A stretch of 64,000 nucleotides of DNA. Source: a virus. This document shows positions 2,763 through 18,342 of the stretch, piece by piece. The notes under the pieces were generated by a model. The model ran no database searches. It saw nothing but the letters and a program-made list of their open reading frames with translations, and had not been told where the DNA came from. Numbering within the stretch: the first letter of the stretch is position 1; every line of letters starts with the position of its first letter. The position numbers and the translations under genes are program-made. The stretch spans positions 90,886-154,885 of IMG/VR virus record IMGVR_UViG_3300020165_000008; one strand, given 5' to 3'.

Positions 2763-3125
2763 TTAGTCAAACTCCAAACTGTTTGTTTCACGGTTGTAAA
2801 AGCAGTAGATGTTTTTTGCGAGCCATAGATCCACAATGGTTTCCGGATCAACTTCTTCGTCGTTTAGATACCACCATTTTTCTCCGTTGGAACACTCACA
2901 AGCCGGGCCATCTTCACGGTGAAGCTTTCCGTTTAGCCACCACGCTTTGTATCCGTTGGCCCTCTCAATAGCCGGACCATCTTCACGGTGAAGCTTATCG
3001 TTTAGGAACCACTTTTTGGTTCCGTCGGCATCCTCAACAGCCGGACCATCTTCACGGTGATGCTTTCCGTTTAGATACCACACTTTGTCTCCGTTGGGAT
3101 AAGTTTTACATTCAGGTTTATTCAT
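2763..3125 (-). CDS. HREDGPA-repeat (MORN/YwqK-like) protein A6
   Basis: 120 residues with three HREDGPA repeats. As in all array members, the N-terminus is MNKPEC and the tail is the conserved DPETIVDLWLAKNIYCFYN...LEF segment. The variable tetrads before LN are KVWY, KKWF, KAWW and KWWY. The repeat resembles the aromatic-L-N-G-K-x-H pattern of MORN variant (YwqK-type) proteins; that relation is from family memory and the function is unknown. It ends in FD rather than the usual FE. Last gene of array A. Confidence 0.85.
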   Translation of the reverse strand: MNKPECKTYPNGDKVWYLNGKHHREDGPAVEDADGTKKWFLNDKLHREDGPAIERANGYKAWWLNGKLHREDGPACECSNGEKWWYLNDEEVDPETIVDLWLAKNIYCFYNRETNSLEFD

Positions 3126-3127
3126 CT

Positions 3128-3628
3128 TTACTCAAACTCTAAACTGTCCGTTTCAGAGTTGTAGAAACAGTAGATGTTCTGGGCCAAGTAGCGATCAACC
3201 AATGTCTCTGGCGAAACTAGTGCTCCGTCCAGGCACCACCCCTTGTTCCCGTAAGCGTCTATGATCGCCGGACCATCTTCACGGTGACGCTTTCCGTTTA
3301 GCCACCATTCTTTGGTTCCGTCGACACACTCTATAGCCGGGCCATCTTCACGGTGACGCTTTCCGTTTAGACACCACACTTTGTATCCGTTGGCCCACTC
3401 GCAAGCCGGACCATCTTCACGGTGGCGCTTTCCGTTTAGCCGCCATTCTTTGTTTCCGTTGGCCCACTCAACAGCCGGGCCATCTTCACGGTGGCGCTTT
3501 CCGTTTAGCCGCCATTCTTTGGTTCCGTTGGCCCACTCAACAGCCGGACCATCTTCACGGTGAAGCTTGCCGTTTAGATACCAGTCTTTGTGTCCGTTGG
3601 GATAAGTTGTACATTCAGGTTTATTCAT
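3128..3628 (-). CDS. HREDGPA-repeat protein A5, divergent tail
   Basis: 166 residues, five repeats; tetrads KDWY, KEWR, KEWR, KVWC, KEWW, KGWC. Its C-terminal cap differs from the other array members: DGALVSPETLVDRYLAQNIYCFYNSETDSLEFE. The repeats thus vary in number while the cap can also drift, which suggests the cap has a specific partner. The start directly follows the stop region of A4's neighbour with no spacer. Confidence 0.85.
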   Translation of the reverse strand: MNKPECTTYPNGHKDWYLNGKLHREDGPAVEWANGTKEWRLNGKRHREDGPAVEWANGNKEWRLNGKRHREDGPACEWANGYKVWCLNGKRHREDGPAIECVDGTKEWWLNGKRHREDGPAIIDAYGNKGWCLDGALVSPETLVDRYLAQNIYCFYNSETDSLEFE

Positions 3629-4060
3629 TTACTCAAACTCCAAACTGTTTGTTTCAGGGTTGTAAAAGCAGTAGATGTTCCTTGCCAGCCATAGATCCAC
3701 AATGGTTTCTGGATCGGCTTCTTCGTGGTTTAGATACCATTCTTTGTTTCCGTTGGCCCTCTCACAAGCCGGGCCATCTTCACGGTGAAGCTTTCCGTTT
3801 AGGAACCATTCTTTGTGTCCGCTGGCCCTCTCAACAGCCGGACCATCTTCACGGTGAAGCTTGCCGTTTAGGTACCACACTTTGTTTCCGTTGGCATCCT
3901 CAACAGCCGGACCATCTTCACGGTGATGCTTACCGTTTAGATACCACACTTTGTCTCCGTTGGCCCACTCAATAGCCGGGCCATCTTCACGGTGATGCTT
4001 ACCGTTTAGATACCACACTTTGTCTCCGTTGGGATAAGTTTTACATTCAGGTTTATTCAT
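3629..4060 (-). CDS. HREDGPA-repeat protein A4
   Basis: 143 residues, four repeats; tetrads KVWY, KVWY, KVWY, KEWF, KEWY. The first two repeats are nearly identical at DNA level (about 3924-4045), consistent with recent duplication of a 69-bp unit. ATG at 4060 follows the stop of A3 directly (TAA-ATG). Confidence 0.85.
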   Translation of the reverse strand: MNKPECKTYPNGDKVWYLNGKHHREDGPAIEWANGDKVWYLNGKHHREDGPAVEDANGNKVWYLNGKLHREDGPAVERASGHKEWFLNGKLHREDGPACERANGNKEWYLNHEEADPETIVDLWLARNIYCFYNPETNSLEFE

Positions 4061-4492
4061 TTACTCAAACTCCAAACTGTTTGTTTCAGGGTTGTAAAAG
4101 CAGTAGATGTTCCTTGCCAGCCATAGATCCACAATGGTTTCTGGATTGACTTCTTTGTTGTTTAGACACCAATATTTGGTTCCGTTGGTATACTCAACAG
4201 CAGGGCCATCTTCACGGTGAAGCTTGCCGTTTAGATACCAATATTTGGTTCCGTTGGCATACTCAGCAGCAGGGCCATCTTCACGGTGAAGCTTTCCGTT
4301 TAGCCGCCATTCTTTGCCTCCGTTGGCCCACTCAACAGCTGGGCCATCTTCACGGTGAAGCTTTCCGTTTAGGAACCATTCTTTGTTTCCGTTGGAATAC
4401 TCACAAGCAGGGCCATCTTCACGGTGACGCTTTCCGTTTAGATACCACGCTTTGGTTCCGTTGGGATAAGTTTTACATTCAGGTTTATTCAT
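4061..4492 (-). CDS. HREDGPA-repeat protein A3
   Basis: 143 residues, four repeats; tetrads KAWY, KEWF, KEWR, KYWY, KYWC. Two adjacent units share the rarer KYW tetrad and the NGT turn, again pointing to local unit duplication. Immediately abuts its neighbours, so translation is probably coupled. Confidence 0.85.
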   Translation of the reverse strand: MNKPECKTYPNGTKAWYLNGKRHREDGPACEYSNGNKEWFLNGKLHREDGPAVEWANGGKEWRLNGKLHREDGPAAEYANGTKYWYLNGKLHREDGPAVEYTNGTKYWCLNNKEVNPETIVDLWLARNIYCFYNPETNSLEFE

Positions 4493-4855
4493 TTACTCAA
4501 ACTCTAAACTGTTTGTTTCACGGTTGTAAAAACAGTAGATGTTTTTTGCGAGCCATAGATCCACAATAGTTTCCGGATCGACTTCTTCGTCGTTTAGCCA
4601 CCACTCTTTGGTTCCGTTGGCCCACTCAACAGCCGGACCATCTTCACGGTGAAGCTTGTCGTTTAGATACCATTCTTTGTCTCCGCTGGCATTCTCACAA
4701 GCAGGGCCATCTTCACGGTGGCGCTTTCCGTTTAGACACCACACTTTGGTTCCGCTGGGATACTCACAAGCCGGACCATCTTCACGGTGACGCTTTCCGT
4801 TTAGATACCACGCTTTGTGTCCGTTGGGATAAGTTTCACATTCAGGTTTATTCAT
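4493..4855 (-). CDS. HREDGPA-repeat protein A2
   Basis: 120 residues, three repeats; tetrads KAWY, KVWC, KEWY, KEWW. The N-terminal cap reads MNKPECETYPNG (E in place of the usual K at position 7). Two bases separate it from the stop of A1. Confidence 0.85.
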   Translation of the reverse strand: MNKPECETYPNGHKAWYLNGKRHREDGPACEYPSGTKVWCLNGKRHREDGPACENASGDKEWYLNDKLHREDGPAVEWANGTKEWWLNDEEVDPETIVDLWLAKNIYCFYNRETNSLEFE

Positions 4856-4857
4856 CT

Positions 4858-5289
4858 TTACTCAAACTCTAAGCAATCAGTTTCAACGTTGTAAAAGCAG
4901 TAGATGTTCTTTGCCAGCCATAGATCCACAATGGTTTCCGGATCAACTTCTTCGTCGTTTAGAAGCCATTCTTTGTATCCGTTGGTATCCTCACAAGCCG
5001 GACCATCTTCACGGTGGCGCTTTCCGTTTAGATACCACCCTTTGCGCCCGTTGGCATACTCAACAGCCGGGCCATCTTCACGGTGAAGCTTGTCGTTTAG
5101 CCACCACGCTTTGCTTCCGTTGGCATACTCAACAGCCGGGCCATCTTCACGGTGGTGTTCTCCGTTTAGAAACCATTCTTTGGTTCCGTTGGCCCTCTCA
5201 ATAGCCGGGCCATCTTCACGGTGGCGCTTTCCGTTTAGGAACCAATGTTTGTTTCCGCTGGGATAAGTTTTACATTCAGGTTTATTCAT
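4858..5289 (-). CDS. HREDGPA-repeat protein A1, first gene of array A
   Basis: 143 residues, four repeats; tetrads KHWF, KEWF, KAWW, KGWY, KEWL. The open frame extends upstream to 5364, but the family N-terminus MNKPEC begins at 5289 and that ATG overlaps the TGA of the preceding gene (ATGA), so 5289 is the start. The tail carries ETDCLEFE instead of ETNSLEFE. Confidence 0.85.
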   Translation of the reverse strand: MNKPECKTYPSGNKHWFLNGKRHREDGPAIERANGTKEWFLNGEHHREDGPAVEYANGSKAWWLNDKLHREDGPAVEYANGRKGWYLNGKRHREDGPACEDTNGYKEWLLNDEEVDPETIVDLWLAKNIYCFYNVETDCLEFE

Positions 5290-5582
5290 ACATCTTGGAA
5301 CTTGTGTAGCGATCCTCTTGACGTGAATCGGTTGATAGGTTTTGTGTAATAGTCTAAAAGCCACTCTTGACTATGCGGGATGCTTTCAGTTTCTTTTGGA
5401 GTCGGAAATGTTTGAAAGTATAGAGGTTCTAACTCCAACTTGACACCTCGGCCTGAATGTCGAACTTGGTTGTCTAGTATCAGTGAAACCAGAGAACATG
5501 GAACATAACTTGGACCACACTCCTCACAGTCTATGCGAACATTGACTTTCCTCACAACTAAGCTCCCAAGTTGATGACGCAT
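5286..5582 (-). CDS. Hypothetical protein between VWA gene and repeat array
   Basis: 98 residues from the ATG at 5582, chosen because GAGG lies nine bases upstream; a GTG at 5597 would overlap the VWA gene stop as GTGA but lacks a ribosome site. It contains a short C-E-E-C pattern (IDCEECGPS) and no recognisable domain. Its stop overlaps the start of the first repeat protein (ATGA), so it links the MoxR-VWA pair to the array translationally. Confidence 0.6.
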   Translation of the reverse strand: MRHQLGSLVVRKVNVRIDCEECGPSYVPCSLVSLILDNQVRHSGRGVKLELEPLYFQTFPTPKETESIPHSQEWLLDYYTKPINRFTSRGSLHKFQDV

Positions 5583-5593
5583 TTGTTCCAACC

Positions 5594-6829
5594 TCACTTT
5601 ACAACTAGCAGGCGCTCATTGACTGACTTTGGATCAAATGCTGGCCGTTCGGCATTTGCTTCATTCGTCAGCCACATTCGCTTTACCCGACAAGATCCAG
5701 GGGCCGGAGCACACAAGTCAGTGAGAACAATCAATGCGTCAAACTCTTTGCGCTCATTCACATACTCTGTGGGCGCTCTAAAGTCAGTTCCACCGCAATA
5801 CACCCTTTCCTTTGGGCCTTTCTTTCCTTTTTCATGAACATAAACATGCTCGTCAAGAACCTTAGTATCAAATGGCGCAACAGTGAAAGTCGCATACTTT
5901 GCAAGTCCATCAAGTTCAGCAAAGAAACTAGTGAGAAGTTTTTCATCTACCGAGCCTGACATATCCACAGCCACGGCAATGTTTGCAACATAGTTTTGTC
6001 GCCGTCCCGGTCGAATGTATGGCTTACGCCGATTGATCTTCATTACCGAGTTTCGCTTGTTTGCTTTTTGCGAAGACTGAATGAACTGGCGCAGAACAGA
6101 CTTCCAATTGATTTGTGGTGTCAATGCCTCAATGATCTTCTTTCGCATTTCAGCAGACACCATTCCCCAACTAGCAGCCTTTGTAGCTTCATTTGTAGCT
6201 TTTTGCAAAATCTGCTTTGCCTTCTGCTCTGCGATTTCTTGTGATCCACCTGCTGCTTCACTGGGATCGGAAAGCCATTCATCATGATTATCAAAGAACG
6301 AGTTTCCACTTGCGCCTTCACCATCTTCAGAAGCCTGCGATTCTGCCTCCTTCATCATTTCTTTGATCTTCTCTTCTAGCTTGTCCTGGTTTTCTTTCAG
6401 GATCTCAAAGTAGAAGTCAGCAGTTTTATTGTGTGGGAACTTCTCAAGATCCGAGAAAGGACCACGCCCCGGAACTAAGCAGAACTCCGGCAATAGATGA
6501 CTGATATGATCATTGATCGCAAGGTCGGTTGCATAGTTCCAAATCTTCATATACTTTGGTTCTGGCAGCCGAGTCGTAATGTGCTGGTTGATGAAATGAA
6601 ACAACTCATGAAGAATAACACCTCGACGATGCTTTGCCGACAACCCACCCATAAACTCAGGGTTGTACCACATAGTGAACTTGTTCTTTTCTTTGTGGTA
6701 GCCAATCGCCGCTGTTGGCAGATCGTTTGTAGGTGTGCGAGCAATTTGCGCAACGCAATGTGCCAAGAACACTTCGTTCTTTACAGTTGCGAAAAGGTCT
6801 TTGTTGAATTCTTTGCGTGTATATGACAT
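5594..6829 (-). CDS. VWA-like protein with N-terminal metallopeptidase domain (DUF2201 type)
   Basis: 411 residues. The N-terminal domain has HELFH at 74-78 (HExxH zinc motif), followed by WNYATDLAIN near 97-106, as in putative metallopeptidases fused to VWA-like domains. A charged linker (about 145-215) leads to a VWA-like domain with an intact metal-binding site: DMSGS at 289-293, T in GGTD near 348, and D in LTD near 371. In other bacteria and phages such proteins pair with MoxR ATPases, the ATPase remodelling the VWA partner. Here the MoxR gene lies immediately upstream (54-base gap) and both probably start from the element at 8098-8127. The role in this phage is unknown. Confidence 0.85.
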   Translation of the reverse strand: MSYTRKEFNKDLFATVKNEVFLAHCVAQIARTPTNDLPTAAIGYHKEKNKFTMWYNPEFMGGLSAKHRRGVILHELFHFINQHITTRLPEPKYMKIWNYATDLAINDHISHLLPEFCLVPGRGPFSDLEKFPHNKTADFYFEILKENQDKLEEKIKEMMKEAESQASEDGEGASGNSFFDNHDEWLSDPSEAAGGSQEIAEQKAKQILQKATNEATKAASWGMVSAEMRKKIIEALTPQINWKSVLRQFIQSSQKANKRNSVMKINRRKPYIRPGRRQNYVANIAVAVDMSGSVDEKLLTSFFAELDGLAKYATFTVAPFDTKVLDEHVYVHEKGKKGPKERVYCGGTDFRAPTEYVNERKEFDALIVLTDLCAPAPGSCRVKRMWLTNEANAERPAFDPKSVNERLLVVK

Positions 6830-6883
6830 TATCTTAGCTGGATTCTTTGTATTGACGGAGTTCTTAATTACTAGACGTGCTTA

Positions 6884-8023
6884 CTAAGACTGATTGATCT
6901 CATTGTCTGTCCTGTTGGAGTGCACAAACAGTTGGTTGAGGGCCTTACCACAGTACTTGTGGAATACCTTTCCTTCCTTTGTGCTCGTAACAATCTCCTT
7001 GAAGAAGGTTACAGAGTTGTCTGCCGGGAAAGTATCAGAAGCCATCCACTTTGCAACACGCTTTGCAACACGAGTCACCTCTTTTTCATCAGGATTGGAC
7101 TTTGACCAGTCAGAGAACCAACCCAAAGAAACAGCTTGTGATGTATAGCGAGTATGATCAACAGCGTCCCAAGCATTGAAGTCTGGTGTTTTCTTTCCAA
7201 GGAGGATATCATCCAGGCTTACATCAAACTTGTAGTTTTCCAAGAAGGACATAAACCCAACCGCCGCCTCAACACCAATAAAGCCTACTCCTAGATTGTG
7301 AATGACTGAAATGTCAAAACTATCTTTCTTCATTAGACCGGCTGCTTCAAGGCAATCATTGAAGCGCTTCCAAGAACGTCGAGAAGGGTATACTTTGTTA
7401 GGTTGGAAATCTCCCAAGTTCTCCAAGAATACACACACACCGGATGTGCTAGTATTCTTTTGTACGAACTCGGTGATCATCTTGTTGATGTTTCCATCAG
7501 TTGCCCATTGGATCCAATCCTGAACAGATGGTTCAACATCATAGCATACCCACCTATCCATTACAGCAGGATCAAAGTCTCGCACACTGTATTGATCAGC
7601 ACCTTCACGATCGCCGCCGTTTGTTGCAGCAATAATCAAAGTTTCAGGGTGTAGATGTTGCCCAGCAATCTTTCTACTATCTGTGAGTTCCATGAATGCC
7701 TGAGTAATGTCATCCGTTCCACGGTCTACCTCATCCAAGAATAGAAGCACCGGACGATCACACGCAATCCAAAGCCTTTCAGTTGGGCTGAACTTGGTAT
7801 ACTCCGATGTTTCAGAAACAATAGGAAGTCCCACAAGATCACCAACGTCGGCAAGCTGTGAAGCACGAATCTCCACAACAGGAAGTTTTCTTTCACGACC
7901 GATCATGTATGCAACCTCCGACTTTCCGACACCGTGACGACCTCGGACCATAACGGGAAGTTTCACGTCGAGAATGCTGTTGATAAGCGGAAGAGCAGAA
8001 GTAAAATCAAATTGTACAGTCAT
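6884..8023 (-). CDS. MoxR-type AAA+ ATPase
   Basis: 379 residues, ATG at 8023 with AAAGGAG upstream. Walker A is GRHGVGKSE (28-36), Walker B is LLFLDEVDRG (93-102) and a sensor-1 asparagine stands in IIAATNGG near 130. These mark the AAA+ family, and the partner gene makes MoxR the best subgroup. MoxR proteins use ATP to activate or assemble VWA-domain partners. It is first in its unit, 75 bases downstream of a two-box element, ahead of the VWA/metallopeptidase, a 98-residue gene and six repeat proteins. Confidence 0.85.
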   Translation of the reverse strand: MTVQFDFTSALPLINSILDVKLPVMVRGRHGVGKSEVAYMIGRERKLPVVEIRASQLADVGDLVGLPIVSETSEYTKFSPTERLWIACDRPVLLFLDEVDRGTDDITQAFMELTDSRKIAGQHLHPETLIIAATNGGDREGADQYSVRDFDPAVMDRWVCYDVEPSVQDWIQWATDGNINKMITEFVQKNTSTSGVCVFLENLGDFQPNKVYPSRRSWKRFNDCLEAAGLMKKDSFDISVIHNLGVGFIGVEAAVGFMSFLENYKFDVSLDDILLGKKTPDFNAWDAVDHTRYTSQAVSLGWFSDWSKSNPDEKEVTRVAKRVAKWMASDTFPADNSVTFFKEIVTSTKEGKVFHKYCGKALNQLFVHSNRTDNEINQS

Positions 8024-8097
8024 ACACTTTCTCCTTTAGAGAGTAATTATAAATGGCTAACCGCTCGCAGTGTAAGACGAGCGCCGCCGGTTCATTA

Positions 8098-8127
8098 GTT
8101 AGACGATCGAGCGGAGGATCTTATCCA
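8098..8127 (-). promoter_or_regulatory. Two-box element, copy 3
   Basis: TGGATAAGATCC, spacer TCCGCTCGA, TCGTCTAAC on the minus strand. It opens the MoxR-VWA-array A unit. Its leader contains a further hairpin, CGCTCG/CGAGCG, around 8062-8084. Confidence 0.7.
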
Positions 8128-8161
8128 CATAAAATCGAAAAAATCGGATCGGGGAGGGCTT

Positions 8162-8527
8162 TTATTCAAGAAAGACTGAAGACAGCCAGCCACTTGTTTC
8201 AAGAAGCATTTTCTGCACCTCCTGAGCACATTCTGTTGCTGCCTTCATTGGGCTGTCTGAATACACCAACCCAAGCTCTTCCCCTTCGGTGGTAAAGATT
8301 ACACACTCGTAAGCAAAGTCTTTGTCCTCTTCATTGACATAATACACCCACTCAACAAAGAACGTTCCTTCAAAGTGCGGAATACGTAGTTCTGCCTGTA
8401 ATGCTACAGTTCCTTCGTCTGGATCGATCCTTGGTTCTGTGTATAGCTCTGGATACAACCCTGAGATAAGTTCCTCAAGTTCCAGTGCTTTCTGTTCAAA
8501 GTATTCTTTCTGTTGGATCTTTACCAT
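8162..8527 (-). CDS. Hypothetical protein, 121 residues
   Basis: Begins MVKIQQKEYFEQKALELEELI, with an AAGGAAAAAAAC ribosome site. The middle (IPHFEGTFFVEWVYYVNEEDKDFAYECVIFTTEGEE) is beta-rich. No family is recognised. It ends just before the two-box element at 8098, so it belongs to the preceding unit. Confidence 0.55.
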   Translation of the reverse strand: MVKIQQKEYFEQKALELEELISGLYPELYTEPRIDPDEGTVALQAELRIPHFEGTFFVEWVYYVNEEDKDFAYECVIFTTEGEELGLVYSDSPMKAATECAQEVQKMLLETSGWLSSVFLE

Positions 8528-8592
8528 GTTTTTTTCCTTGTTCTTGGAGCGTTCTTCTAAATAGTGTGATGTTGTGTAAGCAATCGATGTTG

Positions 8593-8769: not shown

Positions 8770-8797
8770 CTTTTCTCCTTTGTTGTTTGTGTTTGTT

Positions 8798-10377: not shown

Positions 10378-10431
10378 ATAAAATCGAAAAAAGTGACGCA
10401 CCGGAGCGATTTGTTTCATTTTTACTCAAAC
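10378..10431 (-). repeat. Array-end/promoter junction duplicated at about 16705-16757
   Basis: The sequence from the T-run of the two-box element through GTGACGCACCGGAGCG and into the stop of the last array gene is the same at both places. It shows that an array end and the following promoter were copied together. Confidence 0.75.
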
Positions 10432-10784
10432 TCTAAACTGTTTGTTTCAACGTTGTAAAAGCAGTAGATGTTTTTTGCGAGCCATAGATCCACAATAGTT
10501 TCCGGATCGACTTCTTTATTGTTTAGCCACCATTCTTTGGATCCGTCGGCATACTCACAAGCAGGACCATCTTCACGGTGGAGTTCTCCGTTTAGCCACC
10601 ACACTTTGTTTCCGTTGGCCCACTCACTAGCCGGACCATCTTCACGGTGGCGCTTTCCGTTTAGCCGCCATTCTTTGGTTCCGTTGGCCCACTCAACAGC
10701 CGGACCATCTTCACGGTGAAGCATGCCGTTTAGATACCAGTCTTTGCTTCCGTTGGGATAAGTTGTACATTCAGGTTTATTCAT
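10422..10784 (-). CDS. HREDGPA-repeat protein B6
   Basis: 120 residues, three repeats; tetrads KDWY, KEWR, KVWW, KEWW. The first repeat is preceded by NGM rather than NGK. The DNA around 10660-10784 is almost identical to the start of A5 (3540-3628), which suggests exchange between arrays A and B. Confidence 0.85.
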   Translation of the reverse strand: MNKPECTTYPNGSKDWYLNGMLHREDGPAVEWANGTKEWRLNGKRHREDGPASEWANGNKVWWLNGELHREDGPACEYADGSKEWWLNNKEVDPETIVDLWLAKNIYCFYNVETNSLEFE

Positions 10785-11147
10785 TTACTCAAACTCCAAA
10801 CTGTTTGTTTCAGGGTTGTAAAAGCAGTAGATGTTCCTTGCCAGCCATAGATCCACAATGGTTTCCGGATCGACTTCTTTATTGTTTAGATACCACACTT
10901 TGGTTCCGTTGGCCCTCTCACTAGCCGGGCCATCTTCACGGTGGCGCCTTCCGTTTAGAAACCATTCTTTGGTTCCGCTGGCATACTCAACAGCCGGACC
11001 ATCTTCACGGTGAAGCTTTCCGTTTAGCCACCACGCTTTGGTTCCGCTGGCATACTCATAAGCAGGGCCATCTTCACGGTGACGCTTTCCGTTTAGATGC
11101 CACACTTTGTGTCCGTTGGGATAAGTTGTACATTCAGGTTTATTCAT
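10785..11147 (-). CDS. HREDGPA-repeat protein B5
   Basis: 120 residues, three repeats; tetrads KVWH, KAWW, KEWF, KVWY. The residue after HREDGPA in unit 1 is Y, seen nowhere else in the window. The tail has ARNIYCFYNPETNSLEFE, the same cap version as A3 and A4. Confidence 0.85.
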   Translation of the reverse strand: MNKPECTTYPNGHKVWHLNGKRHREDGPAYEYASGTKAWWLNGKLHREDGPAVEYASGTKEWFLNGRRHREDGPASERANGTKVWYLNNKEVDPETIVDLWLARNIYCFYNPETNSLEFE

Positions 11148-11510
11148 TTACTCAAACTCTAAACTGTTTGTTTCAACGTTGTAAAAGCAGTAGATGTTTT
11201 TTGCGAGCCATAGATCCACAATAGTTTCCGGATCGGCTTTTTCGTCGTCTAGATACCACACTTTGGTTCCGTTGGCCCACTCACTAGCCGGGCCATCTTC
11301 ACGGTGAAGCTTTCCGTTTAGAAACCATTCTTTGCGCCCGTTGGCATACTCAATAGCCGGGCCATCTTCACGGTGAAGCTTTCCGTTTAGAAACCATTCT
11401 TTGCGCCCGTTGGCCCACTCAACAGCCGGGCCATCTTCACGGTGAAGCTTGCCGTTTAGCGACCACACTTTGTCTCCGTTGGGATAAGTTTTACATTCAG
11501 GTTTATTCAT
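11148..11510 (-). CDS. HREDGPA-repeat protein B4
   Basis: 120 residues, three repeats; tetrads KVWS, KEWF, KEWF, KVWY. Units two and three (both NGRKEWFLNGKL) are near-identical, a recent duplication of a 69-bp unit. The last turn is LDDEKADPET. Confidence 0.85.
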   Translation of the reverse strand: MNKPECKTYPNGDKVWSLNGKLHREDGPAVEWANGRKEWFLNGKLHREDGPAIEYANGRKEWFLNGKLHREDGPASEWANGTKVWYLDDEKADPETIVDLWLAKNIYCFYNVETNSLEFE

Positions 11511-11873
11511 TTACTCAAACTCTAAACTGTTTGTTTCAACGTTGTAAAAGCAGTAGATGTTCTTTGCCAGCCATAGATCCACAATAGTTTCCGGATCGAC
11601 TTTTTCGTGGTTTAGATACCATTCTTTGGTTCCGCTGGCATACTCAACAGCCGGACCATCTTCACGGTGAAGCTTGTCGTTTAGATACCATTCTTTGTCT
11701 CCGCTGGCATACTCAATAGCCGGGCCATCTTCACGGTGGCGCTTTCCGTTTAGACACCACACTTTGTGTCCGTTGGCCCACTCAACAGCCGGACCATCTT
11801 CACGGTGATGCTCTCCGTTTAGGTACCACACTTTGTCTCCGTTGGGATAAGTTTTACATTCAGGTTTATTCAT
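11511..11873 (-). CDS. HREDGPA-repeat protein B3
   Basis: 120 residues, three repeats; tetrads KVWY, KVWC, KEWY, KEWY. Cap begins LNHEKVDPET, shared with B2 and B1. Two bases separate it from the stop of B2. Confidence 0.85.
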   Translation of the reverse strand: MNKPECKTYPNGDKVWYLNGEHHREDGPAVEWANGHKVWCLNGKRHREDGPAIEYASGDKEWYLNDKLHREDGPAVEYASGTKEWYLNHEKVDPETIVDLWLAKNIYCFYNVETNSLEFE

Positions 11874-11875
11874 CT

Positions 11876-12238
11876 TTACTCAAACTCTAAACTGTTTGTT
11901 TCAACGTTGTAAAAGCAGTAGATGTTCTTTGCCAGCCATAGATCCACAATAGTTTCCGGATCGACTTTTTCGTGGTTTAGATACCACGCTTTGTTTCCGT
12001 TGGCCAACTCAACAGCCGGGCCATCTTCACGGTGACACTTTCCGTTTAGATGCCACGATTTGTGTCCGTTGGCCAACTCAATTGCAGGGCCATCTTCACG
12101 GTGAAGCTTGTCGTTTAGATACCATTCTTTGTTTCCGTTGGCATACTCAACTGCAGGGCCATCTTCACGGTGAAGCCTGTCGTTTAGCCACCATTCTTTG
12201 GTTCCGTTGGCATAAGTTTTACATTCAGGTTTATTCAT
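11876..12238 (-). CDS. HREDGPA-repeat protein B2
   Basis: 120 residues, three repeats; tetrads KEWW, KEWY, KSWH, KAWY. The N-terminus is MNKPECKTYANG, a version otherwise found in array C (17183 and 17477 genes), which suggests exchange between arrays. Confidence 0.85.
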   Translation of the reverse strand: MNKPECKTYANGTKEWWLNDRLHREDGPAVEYANGNKEWYLNDKLHREDGPAIELANGHKSWHLNGKCHREDGPAVELANGNKAWYLNHEKVDPETIVDLWLAKNIYCFYNVETNSLEFE

Positions 12239-12240
12239 CT

Positions 12241-12672
12241 TTACTCAAACTCCAAACTGTTTGTTTCACGGTTATAAAAACAGTAGATGTTTTTTGCGAG
12301 CCATAGATCCACAATTGTTTCCGGATCGACTTTTTCGTGGTTTAGCCACCACGCTTTGTATCCGTTGGCCCACTCGCAAGCCGGGCCATCTTCACGGTGG
12401 CGCTTTCCGTTTAGATACCAATATTTGATTCCGCTGCCCAACTCACTAGCCGGACCATCTTCACGGTGACGCTTTCCGTTTAGCCACCATTCTTTGGTTC
12501 CGTCGCCCAACTCAGCAGCCGGACCATCTTCACGGTGAAGCTTGCCGTTTAGATACCACCATTTTTCTCCGTTGGCCCACTCAACAGCCGGACCATCTTC
12601 ACGGTGATGCTCTCCGTTTAGGAACCATTCTTTGTTTCCGTTGGGATAAGTTTTACATTCAGGTTTATTCAT
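12241..12672 (-). CDS. HREDGPA-repeat protein B1, first gene of array B
   Basis: 143 residues, four repeats; tetrads KEWF, KWWY, KEWW, KYWY, KAWW. Two units use the turn ELGDG/ELGSG instead of the common E-(Y/W)-ANG. It starts ten bases after the stop of the upstream small gene. Confidence 0.85.
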   Translation of the reverse strand: MNKPECKTYPNGNKEWFLNGEHHREDGPAVEWANGEKWWYLNGKLHREDGPAAELGDGTKEWWLNGKRHREDGPASELGSGIKYWYLNGKRHREDGPACEWANGYKAWWLNHEKVDPETIVDLWLAKNIYCFYNRETNSLEFE

Positions 12673-12682
12673 TTACTCAAAC

Positions 12683-12928
12683 TCATACCTTCATTAGGTA
12701 TTTACCACTAAACTTCTCAATGCTCCCACAGCTTGCTCCGGTTAGCCACTCAATACAATAGACACATTCTAGTGGCGGCTTGTCCTCACCCAGATCGGCA
12801 ATCACTGGCTCGATAATATCAACAACCAAGCCCATACTGCGGTCACTATCAAAGTTAGAGATGTCCTCGCCATATGTGGTCCCGTAGGTAGAACATACCA
12901 GATCTGCTAACTCAAACTTTTGCTTCAT
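12683..12928 (-). CDS. Small SH3-like protein with paired cysteines
   Basis: 81 residues from the ATG at 12928, which lies inside the end of the upstream zinc-ribbon gene (17-base overlap). A TTG further up at 12982 is an alternative without support. The order KFELADLVCSTYG, GLVVDIIEPVI, ECVYCIEWL follows the G-x-LV ... GLV ... W pattern of several small proteins here, and C-V-Y-C could bind a metal. Directly upstream of array B. Confidence 0.5.
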   Translation of the reverse strand: MKQKFELADLVCSTYGTTYGEDISNFDSDRSMGLVVDIIEPVIADLGEDKPPLECVYCIEWLTGASCGSIEKFSGKYLMKV

Positions 12929-13037
12929 TTTTATACTTTGTTTCGCAGTGTCGGCAAAGCGACTTCTTTTCTTTACTATCAATAAAACTAAAGCAAGCCT
13001 GACAAATTTGCTTTTTTGTGATTTTTTCTGAACTCAT
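12912..13037 (-). CDS. Zinc-ribbon microprotein, 41 residues
   Basis: The ATG at 13037 has AAGGAAAG six bases upstream and overlaps the TGA of the preceding gene (ATGA). The peptide has ICQACFSF then LCRHCETKY, two CxxC knuckles 12 residues apart, the usual spacing of a small zinc ribbon. Lysines follow both knuckles, which would suit nucleic acid binding. The overlaps on both sides and the ribosome site make it a likely gene despite its size. Confidence 0.65.
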   Translation of the reverse strand: MSSEKITKKQICQACFSFIDSKEKKSLCRHCETKYKNEAKV

Positions 13038-13201
13038 TTTCTTTCCTTGTTGTTTTGATGAACCCACTTGACACCTTCTTTGTCTTGAACGATGATCCGA
13101 TGCTGGGGTTTATACTTATAAGTTATTTCATTCTCTGCGTCTAAAAACCCTACAACCTTTACCTGCTGGGTCTTGTATTTTATCACTTTACCAATTCTCA
13201 A
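13034..13201 (-). CDS. Small SH3-like hypothetical protein (TTG start)
   Basis: The TTG at 13201 is chosen because a strong GGAGG lies seven bases upstream; the longer in-frame ATG at 13261 has no such site and would overlap the previous gene by about 58 bases. The 55 residues (LRIGKVIKYKTQQVKVVGFLDAENEITYKYK) look like a short beta barrel. Its stop overlaps the next start (ATGA). Confidence 0.5.
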   Translation of the reverse strand: MRIGKVIKYKTQQVKVVGFLDAENEITYKYKPQHRIIVQDKEGVKWVHQNNKERK

Positions 13202-13203
13202 TT

Positions 13204-13395
13204 CTATGCCTCCGATACGATTAGCAGGTCTTCTTTGTATTCGACCGATGGACTCATCCAAAACTTAGTTGGGTAAATCCAATCTATCCACGGATCTCCT
13301 GCTTCATCCCACCCAATAACTAAGCCTAGATTGTCGGGACACTCCCTTGTGCGCATAGGCATCATGGGCATAGTTACTAAATCCCCTTCTTTCAT
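13204..13395 (-). CDS. Small SH3-like protein, GDLV family
   Basis: 63 residues: MKEGDLVTMPM at the start, LGLVIGWDEAGDPWIDWIYP in the middle. The same skeleton (GDLV, then GLV, then D-W) recurs in the proteins at 15808, 18339, 35945 and 51978. The ATG overlaps the TGA of the 468-residue gene as ATGA. Confidence 0.6.
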   Translation of the reverse strand: MKEGDLVTMPMMPMRTRECPDNLGLVIGWDEAGDPWIDWIYPTKFWMSPSVEYKEDLLIVSEA

Positions 13396-14798
13396 TCATT
13401 CTCCTTTGACGACATTTCAGCAAAAGCGTATATTTCCAAAATGGAGTTTACAAGATCACTAATAGAGACTGAGCAATTGTTACCAGGGTAGAAGGCAACA
13501 TATGTAACAGCTTCAGGTTCGCCGTTCCACTTCTTTTGTCTCACATCCAATGTTCTCGCAATTGATGAGGAGCCGGTTGTTCCGCCGATCATTTTTCCCT
13601 TCTCAAACGTTTGTGCGTACCCGCCGGAATGAGCCATTTTTATGAAGTCACTAGCAAGATCTCTTGTCTTGCGTGGCTGAAGGAGAGCAGTACACTTTTC
13701 CATCATGTCGGTGGTGGCCTTCATAGGCGTGCCTTCTTCATAGAACAAGTTTCCACCGACTGTCACAGTGCTAAAGTAAGCAGAATTTACTTCGGCTGTA
13801 TTATTGACTCCATCTAGTTTGTTGTAGTTGGGTATCATAAAATCAATCAAGTGCGAAATCGTACTAATGCCGTATCCTCTACTGGCGGATTGCAATGTTA
13901 TACTCTTGGCATGGCTGAAAAGTAGCTCTTGCGCATACTCTTTGACTAAAGTTTCAATCTCTGACGTCAGCGCTTGTGTTAGCTTGAAGCTAAGGTTTCT
14001 ACTAAGCCGTTCATCATCCATCCAACTGATCTCTATGTCCGGAGACTGATCGTTATACCATTCTCCTTCATATTTTGTATGCTCTACATTCTTGTATGCT
14101 GAAGACTTGTTGCTTGAATCCATATGGATAGCAGAAACCATAGAAGAAAAGAACTCACTTCCACTACCGTTTCTTTTATTCAGCGCTGAACTTTGAACGT
14201 TCCTGAGATGAGAACGCAAGAAAGCAATGACTAGAGCACCTTCTTTTCCTTCATAATTTGAGTAGTTGCCGTTTTTCATAGTCGGCTCTACAACTTCCTT
14301 CCAAATCTTCTTGTACTGATTGTCGCTGTTGGCCTCTAGCATACTTTGAACAAAACCACTAAAGTCTAGTTCCAAAAACCCAATTGCCTTTTGTAACCTA
14401 AAATAATAGTGATTCTCATTGGGTACTTCTCCAGTTACAAAGAAAGACAGTACTTGGTTTTTACCTTCTTTGATCTTGATCGACATAGATTCTTTTAGCA
14501 ATCGAGAATCTTCAAATTGGAACTTAGAGTAATTGCTAATCTTATCAACAATCAAGTTCTGCAGTTCAGAAGACTGGTTCCAACTGAGCTTGATATAACC
14601 AGATCTTGGCGTTACTTCGCATTCAATCATTGATGCATCAAGCGAATGGATCGGAGCGGCTTTCTTGATTGCTGCTGGTAGATCTCTCAACAGGCGTGGC
14701 AAGATCTGTGCAGCCAAATCAGTTGTGCGAGCTTTCTCTTTACAACTGCGAACATTATGTCCGGCTTCACCACAATATCTACAAGTTCGTTCTGTCAT
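13392..14798 (-). CDS. Zinc-knuckle protein of unknown function
   Basis: 468 residues. The N-terminus reads CRYCGEAGHNVRSCKEK, a CCHC zinc knuckle (C-x2-C-x4-H-x4-C), a module that binds single-stranded nucleic acid. The remaining 440 residues are unrecognised, with alternating helical and beta stretches and a glycine-serine segment near 410-420. It leads the unit that ends in array B, 58 bases after a two-box element. A role in RNA or ssDNA binding is inferred only from the knuckle. Confidence 0.6.
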   Translation of the reverse strand: MTERTCRYCGEAGHNVRSCKEKARTTDLAAQILPRLLRDLPAAIKKAAPIHSLDASMIECEVTPRSGYIKLSWNQSSELQNLIVDKISNYSKFQFEDSRLLKESMSIKIKEGKNQVLSFFVTGEVPNENHYYFRLQKAIGFLELDFSGFVQSMLEANSDNQYKKIWKEVVEPTMKNGNYSNYEGKEGALVIAFLRSHLRNVQSSALNKRNGSGSEFFSSMVSAIHMDSSNKSSAYKNVEHTKYEGEWYNDQSPDIEISWMDDERLSRNLSFKLTQALTSEIETLVKEYAQELLFSHAKSITLQSASRGYGISTISHLIDFMIPNYNKLDGVNNTAEVNSAYFSTVTVGGNLFYEEGTPMKATTDMMEKCTALLQPRKTRDLASDFIKMAHSGGYAQTFEKGKMIGGTTGSSSIARTLDVRQKKWNGEPEAVTYVAFYPGNNCSVSISDLVNSILEIYAFAEMSSKENE

Positions 14799-14855
14799 TT
14801 TTTTCCTACTAGGTTGTTGTTTTTGCCTTTATCGGCGGGAATTCGTCTCTCATCA

Positions 14856-14885
14856 GTTAGACGATCGAGCGAGGGATCTTATCCA
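14856..14885 (-). promoter_or_regulatory. Two-box element, copy 5
   Basis: TGGATAAGATCC, spacer CTCGCTCGA, TCGTCTAAC on minus. It opens the zinc-knuckle to array B unit. Confidence 0.7.
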
Positions 14886-14919
14886 CATAAAATCGAAAAA
14901 AGTGGCCGATCGGGGTGAT

Positions 14920-15624
14920 TTATTTCAAGATAGATGAATTATCTAGGCTATTTATTGCTACTTTGCTATAAGCGCTTTCAGCTAATTTGCTAATTTTCTG
15001 ATTTGGAGAAGCCAGCAAAGGCACCAAGACGGAATTCCTTGTGCCCCGGCTTAGCATCTCAATATATTGACTGATAAACCAAGGCACATATTTATACGAG
15101 TGCCCGAGCTTTGTATCAGCCGCTGTGACGTGAGAAGAAACGAATGAACTTATGTCATACAAAGTTTGTTCGTCTAATCGGTCAATGTAATGACAACCGC
15201 TCCCCAGGAGAGATACAACGAATCTCCTAAGTTTGCCTGAACCTGATCCGTATAGCGGGTAGCCTGAAGACATCTGTTTATTGAACGCTCTTTTTACCAC
15301 CTCGGTCCAGGTCGCAAACATCCTGTTAGTTTCTTCATCAGATAAGCTTTTTTGAGAGGTAAAGAGGTATGTCTGTAGCTTAGTTGATCGCTTGTGGTGT
15401 TCTTGTAGTTCTTGGATATGTGTAGGCTGCAATTGTATTGTTCCAGCCATTTTGACTGCCCACTCACAACGCACAGGTCCGCTAAGACCCCTCCAAACCT
15501 CCATCATATCATTTTCTGGAATTGTTCCGCCGGCTTCTAGGATCTTGAACAAAGATCGCCTAATAGCGGAATCAGCTTGTACGAACTCTACTGAAGGGAT
15601 AGTCACTTTGATCTTCATAGACAT
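14920..15624 (-). CDS. Hypothetical protein, 234 residues
   Basis: The ATG at 15624 has GGAG seven bases upstream and shares a base with the previous stop (TAATG). The sequence is mostly helical, with a basic GSGSGKLRRFVVSLLGSG patch near 146-163 that resembles but does not match a P-loop. No family recognised. Last gene of its unit. Confidence 0.5.
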   Translation of the reverse strand: MSMKIKVTIPSVEFVQADSAIRRSLFKILEAGGTIPENDMMEVWRGLSGPVRCEWAVKMAGTIQLQPTHIQELQEHHKRSTKLQTYLFTSQKSLSDEETNRMFATWTEVVKRAFNKQMSSGYPLYGSGSGKLRRFVVSLLGSGCHYIDRLDEQTLYDISSFVSSHVTAADTKLGHSYKYVPWFISQYIEMLSRGTRNSVLVPLLASPNQKISKLAESAYSKVAINSLDNSSILK

Positions 15625-15815
15625 TATTCCACTCCTTTTCCACTTGGCGCAAACCCCATTGGCCTAGTTTTCTCTTCAATCTCTGCGGCTGGTTGTTGCA
15701 TTACAGAATAAATTAGTGTTTGTGCAGTTTTAGTTTGCATCGCCATTTGTACCACAACTTCTGCTACCATTTTGCCAGCTTGTTGTGAGAATCCGGACAT
15801 AAAAGTTCTAAGCAT
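15624..15815 (-). CDS. Small helical protein
   Basis: 63 residues, MLRTFMSGFSQQAGKMVAEVVVQMAMQ at the start, a likely amphipathic helix rich in methionine and glutamine, then a proline-containing tail. GGGAG lies seven bases before the ATG, inside the end of the preceding gene. Function unknown. Confidence 0.5.
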   Translation of the reverse strand: MLRTFMSGFSQQAGKMVAEVVVQMAMQTKTAQTLIYSVMQQPAAEIEEKTRPMGFAPSGKGVE

Positions 15816-16053
15816 TGTTATACTCCCTTACATAAGTTGCGTTACAAGTCTCCGTTCTTTGACCGTAAGGAGACTCAAGCCAATCAATAGTGCATTGACA
15901 AAAAATAAAGTTTGGATCTGTGTCTGAGATTTCTGATTTTGAATTCTTATTTTCTATGTCTCTAATGTTTGTGAGTAAGCCATAGTAGTTTTTGTATGGT
16001 TGCCCATTCTTAGGGTTTTCTAAAGTAACCAGATTTCCAAGTTTTAGTTTCAT
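15808..16053 (-). CDS. Small SH3-like protein, GNLV family
   Basis: 81 residues from the ATG at 16053. MKLKLGNLVTLENPKNGQPYKNYYGLLTNI, then CQCTIDWLESP, gives the same G-x-LV ... GL ... DW layout as the 13204 protein. C-Q-C is unusual in the set. Confidence 0.6.
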   Translation of the reverse strand: MKLKLGNLVTLENPKNGQPYKNYYGLLTNIRDIENKNSKSEISDTDPNFIFCQCTIDWLESPYGQRTETCNATYVREYNNA

Positions 16054-16094
16054 TGTTTTTTCCAAGAAGAAATAATTGATTATAGTGTTGTTTG

Positions 16095-16580
16095 TTATTC
16101 AGGCCATTTGAGTGCCGGGTAAACATTCTCCCAAGATCCATCTTCACACAAAACGTGTCTAAAGGGTAAGCAGTCATCCTCTACATACTGGCTCTCAATG
16201 AATGTTTCTTTTGGCTTACAAACTAAGGCAAGGAATTCTTGAAGTTGATCAACGGCTTCATAACATTCCTCTCCACAATAATCTTCCATTGTGATAGAAT
16301 TATGTGCGTATACATTCAAATTACCAAAGAAGCATTCCAAAAATGTGGTAAAGCAATTTGAATAAACAGCATCAACAAACTCTGAATGAAGGTCTTTTTG
16401 AGTGGAGTCCTGCCAACCCCAACGAGGATACTTTGTTTCATTCCTCGCTTCAAACAAGAAGTGCTCTCGTTCGTCAGCCGGCAGATCATACTCTTTCCAA
16501 AGTTCATCTGTTAATTTTCCAATGATCTTTTGATGATCTTCTTTGAGTTCAAATTCTACGTGCCAGTTCCATAACGACAT
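16095..16580 (-). CDS. Hypothetical acidic protein, 161 residues
   Basis: ATG at 16580 with AAAGGAAAAAAA upstream; a frame extension to 16616 lacks a ribosome site. Rich in Trp, Glu and Cys (MSLWNWHVEFELKEDHQKI; MEDYCGEECYEAVDQL). No domain recognised. First gene of the unit opened at 16674-16703; its leader has a GAGGGG/CCCCTC hairpin near 16614-16640. Confidence 0.5.
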   Translation of the reverse strand: MSLWNWHVEFELKEDHQKIIGKLTDELWKEYDLPADEREHFLFEARNETKYPRWGWQDSTQKDLHSEFVDAVYSNCFTTFLECFFGNLNVYAHNSITMEDYCGEECYEAVDQLQEFLALVCKPKETFIESQYVEDDCLPFRHVLCEDGSWENVYPALKWPE

Positions 16581-16673
16581 TTTTTTCCTTTGTTGTTGAA
16601 GGAGGGTTTGTTTCAAGAGAGGGGGCCGAAAACCCCTCGGTGCGCAGCTTGGTGGGCTTTTGGGCGCTCATTA

Positions 16674-16703
16674 GTTAGACGATCGAGGCGAGGATCTTAT
16701 CCA
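16674..16703 (-). promoter_or_regulatory. Two-box element, copy 6
   Basis: TGGATAAGATCC, spacer TCGCCTCGA, TCGTCTAAC on minus. Immediately past array C, with flank identical to that of copy 4. Confidence 0.7.
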
Positions 16704-16748
16704 CATAAAATCGAAAAAAGTGACGCACCGGAGCGATTTGTTTCATTT

Positions 16749-17180
16749 TTACTCAAACTCCAAACTGTTTGTTTCACGGTTGTAAAAACAGTAGATGTTC
16801 TTTGCGAGCCATAGATCCACAATGGTTTCCGGATCGACTTCTCCGTGGTTTAGCCACCACGCTTTGGTTCCGTTGGAATACTCAACAGCCGGGCCATCTT
16901 CACGGTGAAGATTGCCGTTTAGATACCAATGTTTGTCTCCGTTGGCATACTCACAAGCCGGGCCATCTTCACGGTGAAGCTTGCCGTTTAGGAACCATTC
17001 TTTTTCTCCGTCGAGCCACTCAAAAGCCGGACCATCTTCACGGTGACGCTTTCCGTTTAGGAACCATTCTTTGGATCCGTCGGCACACTCTAGAGCCGGG
17101 CCATCTTCACGGTGGCGCTTTCCGTTTAGCCGCCATTCTTTGGTTCCGTTGGCATAAATTTTACATTCAGGTTTATTCAT
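16749..17180 (-). CDS. HREDGPA-repeat protein C4
   Basis: 143 residues, four repeats; tetrads KEWR, KEWF, KEWF, KHWY, KAWW. N-terminus MNKPECKIYANG (I for T). Unit 3 has the turn EWLDGEKEW, with leucine in place of alanine. It ends at the duplicated promoter junction. Confidence 0.85.
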   Translation of the reverse strand: MNKPECKIYANGTKEWRLNGKRHREDGPALECADGSKEWFLNGKRHREDGPAFEWLDGEKEWFLNGKLHREDGPACEYANGDKHWYLNGNLHREDGPAVEYSNGTKAWWLNHGEVDPETIVDLWLAKNIYCFYNRETNSLEFE

Positions 17181-17182
17181 CT

Positions 17183-17476
17183 TTACTCAAACTCCAAACT
17201 GTTTGTTTCACGGTTGTAAAAACAGTAGATGTTCTTTGCGAGCCATAGATCCACAATAGTTTCCGGATCGGCTTTTTTGTTGTTTAGGAACCACCATTTG
17301 TTTCCGTTGGCATACTCAATTGCAGGGCCATCTTCACGGTGAAGCTTGTCGTTTAGGAACCACGCTTTGTTTCCGCTGGCCAACTCAACAGCCGGGCCAT
17401 CTTCACGGTGAAGCTTGCCGTTTAGATACCATTCTTTGGCTCCGTTGGCATAAGTTTTACATTCAGGTTTATTCAT
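17183..17476 (-). CDS. HREDGPA-repeat protein C3, shortest member
   Basis: 97 residues with only two repeats; tetrads KEWY, KAWF, KWWF. It keeps both caps in full (MNKPECKTYANG; KADPETIVDLWLAKNIYCFYN), so two units appear to be enough to keep the gene, and length change happens in whole 23-residue steps. Confidence 0.85.
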   Translation of the reverse strand: MNKPECKTYANGAKEWYLNGKLHREDGPAVELASGNKAWFLNDKLHREDGPAIEYANGNKWWFLNNKKADPETIVDLWLAKNIYCFYNRETNSLEFE

Positions 17477-17977
17477 TTACTCAAACTCCAAACTGTTTGT
17501 TTCAACGTTGTAAAAGCAGTAGATGTTTTTTGCGAGCCATAGATCCACAATGGTTTCCGGATCGGCTTCTTTGTTGTTTACGTACCATTCTTTGGTTCCG
17601 TTGGTATCCTCACAAGCCGGACCATCTTCACGGTGGCGCTTTCCGTTTAGATACCATTCTTTGTGTCCGTTGGTCCTCTCAACAGCCGGGCCATCTTCAC
17701 GGTGGCGCTTTCCGTTTAGATGCCACTCTTTGGCTCCGCTGGCATACTCAACAGCCGGGCCATCTTCACGGTGAAGCTTGCCGTTTAGCCGCCATTCTTT
17801 GTATCCGTTGGCCCTCTCAACAGCAGGACCATCTTCACGGTGAAGCTTGCCGTTTAGATACCATTCTTTGTTTCCGTTGGCCAACTCAACAGCCGGGCCA
17901 TCTTCACGGTGAAGCTTGCCGTTTAGATACCATTCTTTGGTTCCGTTGGCATAAGTTTTACATTCAGGTTTATTCAT
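17477..17977 (-). CDS. HREDGPA-repeat protein C2
   Basis: 166 residues, five repeats; tetrads KEWY, KEWY, KEWR, KEWH, KEWY, KEWY. Every tetrad starts KEW, so this member is far more uniform than others. The first two units are almost the same at DNA level. The last tetrad is followed by VNNKE rather than LN. Confidence 0.85.
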   Translation of the reverse strand: MNKPECKTYANGTKEWYLNGKLHREDGPAVELANGNKEWYLNGKLHREDGPAVERANGYKEWRLNGKLHREDGPAVEYASGAKEWHLNGKRHREDGPAVERTNGHKEWYLNGKRHREDGPACEDTNGTKEWYVNNKEADPETIVDLWLAKNIYCFYNVETNSLEFE

Positions 17978-17979
17978 CT

Positions 17980-18342
17980 TTACTCAAACTCCAAACTGTT
18001 TGTTTCACGGTTGTAAAAGCAGTAGATGTTTTTTGCGAGCCATAGATCCACAATAGTTTCCGGATCGACTTTTTTGTTGTTTAGATACCACCCTTTGCGC
18101 CCGTTGGCATACTCAACAGCCGGACCATCTTCACGGTGACGCTTACCGTTTAGATACCACAATTTGGCTCCGTTGGCCCACTCACAAGCCGGACCATCTT
18201 CACGGTGGCGCTTTCCGTTTAGCCACCATTCTTTGGTTCCGTTGGGATACTCACAAGCAGGGCCATCTTCACGGTGATGCTTTCCGTTTAGATACCACTC
18301 TTTGTCTCCGTTGGGATAAGTTTTACATTCAGGTTTATTCAT
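17980..18342 (-). CDS. HREDGPA-repeat protein C1, first gene of array C
   Basis: 120 residues, three repeats; tetrads KEWY, KEWW, KLWY, KGWY. The frame opens at 18414, but the family N-terminus and the ATGA overlap with the upstream stop set the start at 18342. Confidence 0.85.
   Translation of the reverse strand: MNKPECKTYPNGDKEWYLNGKHHREDGPACEYPNGTKEWWLNGKRHREDGPACEWANGAKLWYLNGKRHREDGPAVEYANGRKGWYLNNKKVDPETIVDLWLAKNIYCFYNRETNSLEFE

Follow-up and report, generated by a model that had tools for sequence, protein, structure and literature searches.

Introduction

PMC7725318 describes the MORN repeat as 23 residues long, with a loop and two strands per unit, and reports that the groove of MORN4 binds the tail of myosin 3a with very high affinity, so the MORN fold is able to bind proteins. 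In marseilleviruses, MORN proteins rank with the most abundant families of paralogues (PMC8208085), and YwqJ/YwqK is listed as a toxin-antitoxin pair (PMC6562991). Here we describe a family of 17 modular repeat genes in a stretch of 64,000 nucleotides (hereafter the window), the right-hand 64 kb of the uncultured virus record IMGVR_UViG_3300020165_000008 (154,885 bases; G000). The proteins are built from a 23-residue unit ending in HREDGPA, which is predicted to be a divergent MORN-like repeat. As far as our searches show, a homogenised and diversified phage repertoire of MORN-like repeats is new, as are the codon invariance and homogenisation of the frame and the loss of unit orthology between sister phages. 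No literature on HREDGPA was found, and searches on MORN with phage and YwqK, MORN with giant viruses, hypervariable repeats, COG2849 and tandem arrays returned nothing describing such arrays by title or start of abstract, subscription papers being mostly outside their coverage; the available part of PMC3482391 names neither MORN nor YwqK.

Results

All 17 open reading frames (ORFs) lie on the minus strand and together carry 59 full units. Sixteen are grouped in three arrays, at 2763-5289 (six genes), 10422-12672 (six) and 16749-18342 (four), and one stands alone at 33413. A recount in the window confirmed these numbers of genes and units, claimed in an earlier note made from the letters alone, together with the array-gene lengths of 97, 120, 143 or 166 amino acids (aa), which change in multiples of 23. 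The genes, and a recombinase to which we return below, are as follows.

2763-3125, minus strand: array 1 repeat gene, 120 aa, 3 full units (sequence)
3128-3628, minus strand: array 1 repeat gene, 166 aa, 5 units, divergent C-cap SPETLVDRYLAQ (sequence)
3629-4060, minus strand: array 1 repeat gene, 143 aa, 4 units (sequence)
4061-4492, minus strand: array 1 repeat gene, 143 aa, 4 units (sequence)
4493-4855, minus strand: array 1 repeat gene, 120 aa, 3 units (sequence)
4858-5289, minus strand: first-read gene of array 1, 143 aa, 4 units; mechanical ORF start upstream at 5364
10422-10784, minus strand: array 2 repeat gene, 120 aa, 3 units (sequence)
10785-11147, minus strand: array 2 repeat gene, 120 aa, 3 units (sequence)
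11148-11510, minus strand: array 2 repeat gene, 120 aa, 3 units (sequence)
11511-11873, minus strand: array 2 repeat gene, 120 aa, 3 units (sequence)
11876-12238, minus strand: array 2 repeat gene, 120 aa, 3 units (sequence)
12241-12672, minus strand: first-read gene of array 2, 143 aa, 4 units (sequence)
16749-17180, minus strand: array 3 repeat gene, 143 aa, 4 units (sister G017: 8)
17183-17476, minus strand: array 3 repeat gene, 97 aa, 2 units (sister G017: 2)
17477-17977, minus strand: array 3 repeat gene, 166 aa, 5 units (sister G017: 6); member modelled with AlphaFold2
17980-18342, minus strand: first-read gene of array 3, 120 aa, 3 units (sister G017: 4); mechanical ORF start upstream at 18414
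33413-33808, minus strand: lone relative with other caps, about 131 aa, 3 units (sister L007: 6); start codon read from sequence
52746-53900, minus strand: UvsX-like recombinase (phrog_97, E 8.5e-56)

A chance origin of the repeats is excluded, because many distinct units stand at an exact spacing of 69 base pairs (bp) and share their codons. Each repeat gene is closed by a partial unit that lacks HREDGPA. The caps at the two protein ends, which the earlier note had assigned to all 17 genes, are common to the 16 array genes, whereas the gene at 33413 starts with MIEYKVKAW and ends in VVEIDGKKYKLTEV; nor is the C-terminal cap given there as DPETIVDLWLA.. constant, being replaced by SPETLVDRYLAQ in the gene at 3128-3628 and occurring elsewhere in RETN, VETN and PETN forms. 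Inside the arrays the gap from a stop codon to the next ATG is 0 bp at seven junctions and 2 bp at six, and these starts are preceded by (G/A)GAGTTTGAGTAA, the end of the LEFE codons of the preceding gene, which may double as a ribosome-binding site. The lone gene has its likely ATG at 33808, with AGGAGG just upstream. Ahead of the first gene of array 2, at 12673-12684, stands GAGTTTGAGTAA, with which repeat genes usually close at the 3' end, but a full repeat gene is missing there; it is perhaps a relic of a lost copy. Three more genes, with eight more HREDGPA units, lie in the same record just left of the window (about 89049-90210).

The consensus of the unit is x-E-x-A-N-G-x-K-x-W-x-L-N-G-K-x-HREDGPA, in which G6, K8, W10, L12, N13 and H17-A23 are unchanged in all 59 units. 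Unchanged to the same extent are the codons of K8 (AAA), W10 (TGG), L12 (CTA), N13 (AAC), H17 (CAC), R18 (CGT), E19 (GAA) and D20 (GAT), and synonymous change is present at G6, G21, P22 and A23. Since CTA makes up about 18% of the leucine codons of the flanking open frames (some of which are spurious), its use at L12 in 59/59 units is not forced by usage. Codons 1, 3, 7, 9 and 11 vary, and 4, 5 and 14-16 do so less, with entropies of 3.03, 2.29 and 2.28 bits at columns 7, 9 and 11 and of 0 at columns 8, 10 and 12. Column 7 holds 11 different residues, encoded by NNC in 57/59 units; column 3 is Y, W, R or L in 54/59 and column 11 is Y, F, W or R in 52/59; the codons of column 4 (GCC, CCC, TCC, GGC, GTC, CTC, ACC) vary at G and C, not at A. 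The 67 units of the whole virus are all distinct as DNA (67/67), and 65 are distinct as protein. Alignment and per-column entropy thus bear out the pattern seen in the earlier note, an invariant scaffold with HREDGPA identical in every unit and few variable positions. Largely the same positions vary elsewhere: in a set of 23 viruses, each with at least 12 distinct units and including this virus and its sisters as four of them, columns 3 and 9 exceed 1 bit in all 23, column 7 in 22 and column 1 in 21, and column 11 reaches 0.9 bits in 22.

AlphaFold2 predicted the 166-aa member at 17477-17977, from an alignment of 27 sequences, to be a single-layer beta-sheet, with a mean predicted local distance difference test score (pLDDT) of 92.1 and a predicted template modelling score (pTM) of 0.76. 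Foldseek returned 11 solved matches at E<=0.001, namely MORN1, MORN4, junctophilin-2 and a radial-spoke chain (best 6t68_A, E 7.1e-6), the latter two of which we take to be MORN proteins as well. VIA-align gave Z values, of a size that can be common, of up to 8.8 with the radial-spoke and MORN1 chains, and lower ones with the single-layer sheets of the CPAP G-box and OspA. By sequence, the solved structures searched with the family profile A1 yielded nothing below E 0.56, and none of the six of 17 window proteins scanned passed the Pfam cut-offs for MORN families (best for MORN_2, PF07661, 23.4 bits against a gathering cut-off of 29.6) or that of DUF6745 (PF20530; best 23.5 against 27), the latter being passed by 5 of 10 fetched relatives on whole-protein score. 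The predicted fold and its matches support the likeness to MORN proteins suggested earlier. With MORN1, MORN4 and junctophilin the phage unit shares the period of 23 residues (the 69-bp spacing), the single-layer sheet of the model and the best structural matches, but it lacks the MORN consensus GxG...G...YEGEW (as given in PMC7725318) and differs by its invariant HREDGPA loop, its codon-level homogenisation and its diversified columns. In the sheet, the alternation x7 K8 x9 W10 x11 L12 suggests that the variable side chains probably lie on one face; it is strict in this virus group, and many other viruses vary at columns 8 and 12 too.

The uniformity of the frame exceeds what codon usage provides. 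Codon homozygosity at frame positions is 0.90 in this virus, compared with 0.37 expected from the flanking frames, and over the 23 viruses two units of the same virus share a frame codon with a mean probability of 0.75 (0.42 expected), compared with 0.47 for units of different viruses; sharing is above expectation in 223 of 247 virus-columns. Because codons are uniform within a virus beyond usage and differ between viruses, the frame undergoes concerted evolution, with homogenisation inside each virus and turnover from one virus to another. When the first unit of each of the 16 array genes is set aside, the remaining 40 units have a mean identity of 0.844 within a gene, 0.830 within an array and 0.836 between arrays, and the nearest unit lies in another array for 30 of the 40 (26.7 expected). 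Since units are hardly closer within a gene or array than between arrays, the three arrays behave as one pool. Of the 78 column pairs only two show an association at z>3, and in each the columns are separated by 6 bp. Recombination between units, proposed in the earlier note as the origin of the diversity, is well supported, because the codons are homogeneous, units do not cluster by gene or array, and a UvsX-like recombinase is present; we infer that this recombinase is a candidate for the enzyme of unit exchange.

The arrays also differ between related phages. The flanks of the sister contig 3300031957_002512 (G017) are about 93-97% identical to the window in long alignments, and the unit counts of array 3 are 3, 5, 2 and 4 in the window but 4, 6, 2 and 8 in the sister, so that three of four syntenic genes differ. 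Units of syntenic genes have an identity of 0.794 (78 pairs) and other pairs of 0.791 (1,042), so syntenic position no longer predicts which units resemble each other, and unit orthology between window and sister has been lost. The proportion of synonymous differences (pS) is 0.26-0.30 in position-matched parts of the arrays, against 0.115 in flanking genes. The lone gene has three units in the window and six in a second sister (3300032083_002352, L007), and the left array has three genes in this virus and six in 3300032083_003484, beside one matching flank. Scans with flanking genes found no sisters beyond the two contigs already known. The earlier note had held that identical arrays in all relatives would count against diversification; among diverged sisters unit number and variable residues differ, whereas near-identical strains mostly carry identical arrays. 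In a second record, IMGVR 3300020595_000009, which may not be an independent assembly, the three arrays are identical, with 0 differences in 4,734 repeat bases for locus L026 and 0 in 5,391 for locus L024 against the window (two overlapping comparisons with trimmed ends that jointly cover the arrays). The contig G006 apparently lacks the six-unit gene of G017, the first 405 bases past the join matching exactly and the gene ends being identical over 105 bp; this loss was not used as evidence, because the contig ends inside the array and assembly collapse is possible.

Relatives of the family were found by tblastn in 5 of 50,697 phage records (three distinct phages, two of the cultivated ones being Agrobacterium phage Atu_ph07 and Celeribacter phage P12053L) and in 7 of 72,556 plasmid records. 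Pattern scans found at least 567 relative-bearing stretches in IMG/VR and 95 in a genome collection. From the latter, 77 loci were retained, many of them assigned by title to Alphaproteobacteria and some to Burkholderiales. By these scans the family is widespread in uncultured phages and in some bacteria and nearly absent from cultivated phages. Fold matches in BFVD, at 28-65% identity, include giant-virus proteins, among them Mimivirus R871, a Powai lake megavirus protein and a Harvfovirus "MORN repeat-containing protein"; these and the proteins of Atu_ph07 and P12053L are homologues of the unit, and carry an uncharacterised or MORN-like annotation. The statement in the earlier note that no phage is known with as many copies did not hold, since single loci of other IMG/VR viruses, L139 (73 distinct units, 17 repeat ORFs) and L117 (48 distinct units, 15 repeat ORFs), are comparable, their ORF counts having been made by pattern and possibly including a few overlapping frames.

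Several relatives stand in other contexts. Fusions of the repeats to a domain with the motif GKxTxWCT occur in other phages (L020, 6480-9116; L122, 7164-8420; L157, 5281-6534); for this domain Pfam gave no confident family and the model was poor (pLDDT 56). In a Chthoniobacter bin, HREDGPA-type repeats are fused to an S-adenosylmethionine (SAM) methyltransferase domain (L088, 5986-7398; PF08241, E 4.5e-17). HREDGPA genes also occur in Duganella, Zoogloea, Acidovorax and Janthinobacterium (L045, L072, L074, L077), several per locus in three of the four, with neighbours that by eye resemble mobilisation, regulator and methyltransferase genes, and a non-phage mobile element may carry the family there.

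By gene content the virus is a tailed phage, with a DnaE-like DNA polymerase, a DnaB-like helicase, the UvsX-like recombinase, ribonucleotide reductase, thymidylate synthase and GroEL, and a weak tape-measure match. Its DNA polymerase revealed no close cultivated relative, identity being at most 30.9% among the best 12 of 1,356 matching records. The gene immediately upstream of the lone repeat gene (33810-35474, minus strand) resembles adenylosuccinate synthetases of the phage 2-aminoadenine type (phrog_1211, E 3.5e-69), and its ORF stays open some 220 residues ahead of the phage-matched part; the DNA of the virus may contain 2-aminoadenine. A phage GroEL (27223-28809, minus strand; phrog_5725) and an Hsp20-like protein (24965-25363, minus strand; PF00011) are also encoded. 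Beside array 1 are a DUF2201 VWA/metallopeptidase-like protein and an AAA ATPase (5594-6829 and 6884-8023, minus strand), and adjoining array 3, at 18728-19105 (minus strand), is what by eye is likely a small lipoprotein with a very acidic tail of DTVEDTV-type repeats.

Discussion

We lean towards reading the arrays as a diversified repertoire of small MORN-like repeat binders, shuffled by recombination, for changing partners in the infected cell, which we consider somewhat more probable than its opposite. Each 23-residue unit would add a piece to one single-layer beta-sheet, with the invariant G6, K8, W10, L12, N13 and the HREDGPA loop as its frame, and positions 1, 3, 7, 9 and 11 (4, 5 and 14-16 less so) would contribute the variable side chains, which probably share one face. 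Homologous recombination between codon-identical frames would add or remove whole units and genes and mix units across arrays, leaving frames uniform and turning over the combinations of variable residues between related phages. A diversified surface is likely, and the binding of host targets plausible; the partners could be host defence or other interfering proteins. A more ambitious version, in which about 20 MORN-like binders from five places in the genome form an adaptive repertoire, with one sheet face reshuffled into an antibody-like library against bacterial defences, at least three arrays acting as one pool and sister phages carrying different sets of specificities, is possible, and we hold it only tentatively as a whole.

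We infer that selection drives the diversification. Over all pairs of the 67 units, the proportion of nonsynonymous differences (pN) is 0.19-0.55 and pS 0.00-0.05 at columns 3, 4, 5 and 7, compared with 0.002 and 0.135 at frame columns; the seven variable columns pooled give 0.44 and 0.28. At variable columns, codon positions 1-2 are more diverse than position 3 in four of five viruses (in G000, 0.445 against 0.279, with a 95% interval of the difference of 0.128-0.193). These data suggest, but do not prove, that diversification is limited to a few sites, and several observations weigh against our interpretation. The case for positive selection rests on columns chosen after they were seen to vary, the codon-position test is not significant in virus G003, and pS is high at columns 1, 9 and 11 (0.39, 0.80 and 0.78). 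Between window and sister, caps and units taken as wholes have pN/pS of 0.32, 0.55 and 0.48, all below 1 (nine flanking genes, 0.22). Matching of the patterns by eye places K8, W10 and L12 on the YEGEW (groove) side and x7, x9 and x11, with x1 and x3, on the opposite one; the variable residues would then be opposite the ligand groove of MORN4, and that precedent would not be directly transferable. Several contigs end in arrays, and short-read assembly can scramble repeat arrays, so that assembly error is a standing caveat.

Near-identical strains were compared in 13 hand-picked pairs; any two distinct contigs that showed one or more counted differences were entered once, and 300 bases at each alignment end were uncounted. 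The set omits comparisons of loci on one and the same contig, further occurrences of a pair through other loci (also L159/L163 and L160/L163, with one difference outside the repeats), pairs without counted differences, and G000 against G001 and G011 through other loci; the omitted G000/G001 comparison has two single differences and a one-base gap, all outside the repeats. Twelve of the 13 pairs show no excess in the repeats, with 9 differences in 9,437 repeat bases and 66 in 82,895 others (p 0.57), which also speaks against our interpretation. The exception is L138/L148, where 40 differences were counted over 320 repeat bases that lie no more than about 900 bases from a contig end; its inclusion gives 49 in 9,757 and 69 in 88,586. 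The pair L004/L006 has just two counted differences, which are neighbouring bases and turn column 7 of one unit from D into T, a single event that is no more than suggestive; a further 12 differences in repeats, within the final 74 aligned bases beside the contig end, are uncounted. The pattern among near-identical strains fits rare block replacement rather than steady hypermutation.

The lack of an excess in 12 of the 13 strain pairs also favours a rival reading in which the variation is simply tolerated, the repeat being recombining and homogenised with a constrained frame and a generic structural or scaffolding role, and its exposed positions drifting without aim. Concerted evolution alone explains the codon homogeneity, unit-wide pN/pS is below 1 between sisters, and third codon positions at columns 3, 9 and 11 are as variable, or nearly so, as second ones. 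Free drift, however, predicts third positions at least as variable as first and second ones, and columns 4, 5 and 7 hardly vary there (diversity at third positions, pi3, 0.04, 0.00 and 0.08, against 0.16-0.70 for pi1/pi2); the residues allowed at columns 3 and 11 are also restricted. We consider this explanation rather unlikely, though a serious one. Programmed hypermutation of the variable codons, for instance by a diversity-generating retroelement, is very improbable as a general rule: the NNC codons of column 7 resemble targets of adenine mutagenesis, but column 4 varies at G and C, and the strain pairs, L138/L148 excepted, lack an excess in the repeats. A retroelement was rejected, as the base pattern is wrong (its template repeat was not sought) and RVT_1 had no match in nine virus records (G000 and eight others, which may be incomplete), the control search having matched in 3 of 14 genomes. 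Recombination with selection fits better than programmed hypermutation, because no reverse transcriptase was found and 12 of 13 strain pairs show no excess.

Two other roles were considered. Antitoxin or immunity proteins like YwqK of YwqJ/YwqK would form a binding repertoire of a special kind, in which every member counters its own toxin, made by the host or by a competing element. MORN_2, presumably the family of YwqK, is a Pfam match below threshold, and relatives form multi-gene clusters on mobile-element-like bacterial loci; YwqJ/YwqK is, as noted, a listed toxin-antitoxin pair. Among the scanned neighbours, most of which matched nothing, there is no toxin family or pair (the padloc and ncbifam libraries were outside the scan), and we judge this role improbable. 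Parts of the virion or its surface, varying to change host attachment, seem a poorer candidate still: some relatives are fused to larger phage ORFs, but the scanned neighbours, again mostly without matches, include no tail or baseplate family, and the proteins, of 97-166 aa, do not look secreted by eye.

If the variable face of the repertoire binds, phages would own a modular binder system, retargeted by recombination and common in uncultured viruses, and the use of such repeat families by viruses, giant viruses included, would become testable; the phage repeat could also supply a natural scaffold for engineered binders. Lamprey variable lymphocyte receptors, the repeats of TAL effectors and the zinc fingers of PRDM9 combine near-identical frames, few variable contact positions and recombination of units. 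Unlike these, the phage arrays show little diversification within a strain, and their ligands are putative; by analogy, and with no homology claimed, they work alike in having uniform frames, few variable positions and units exchanged by recombination.

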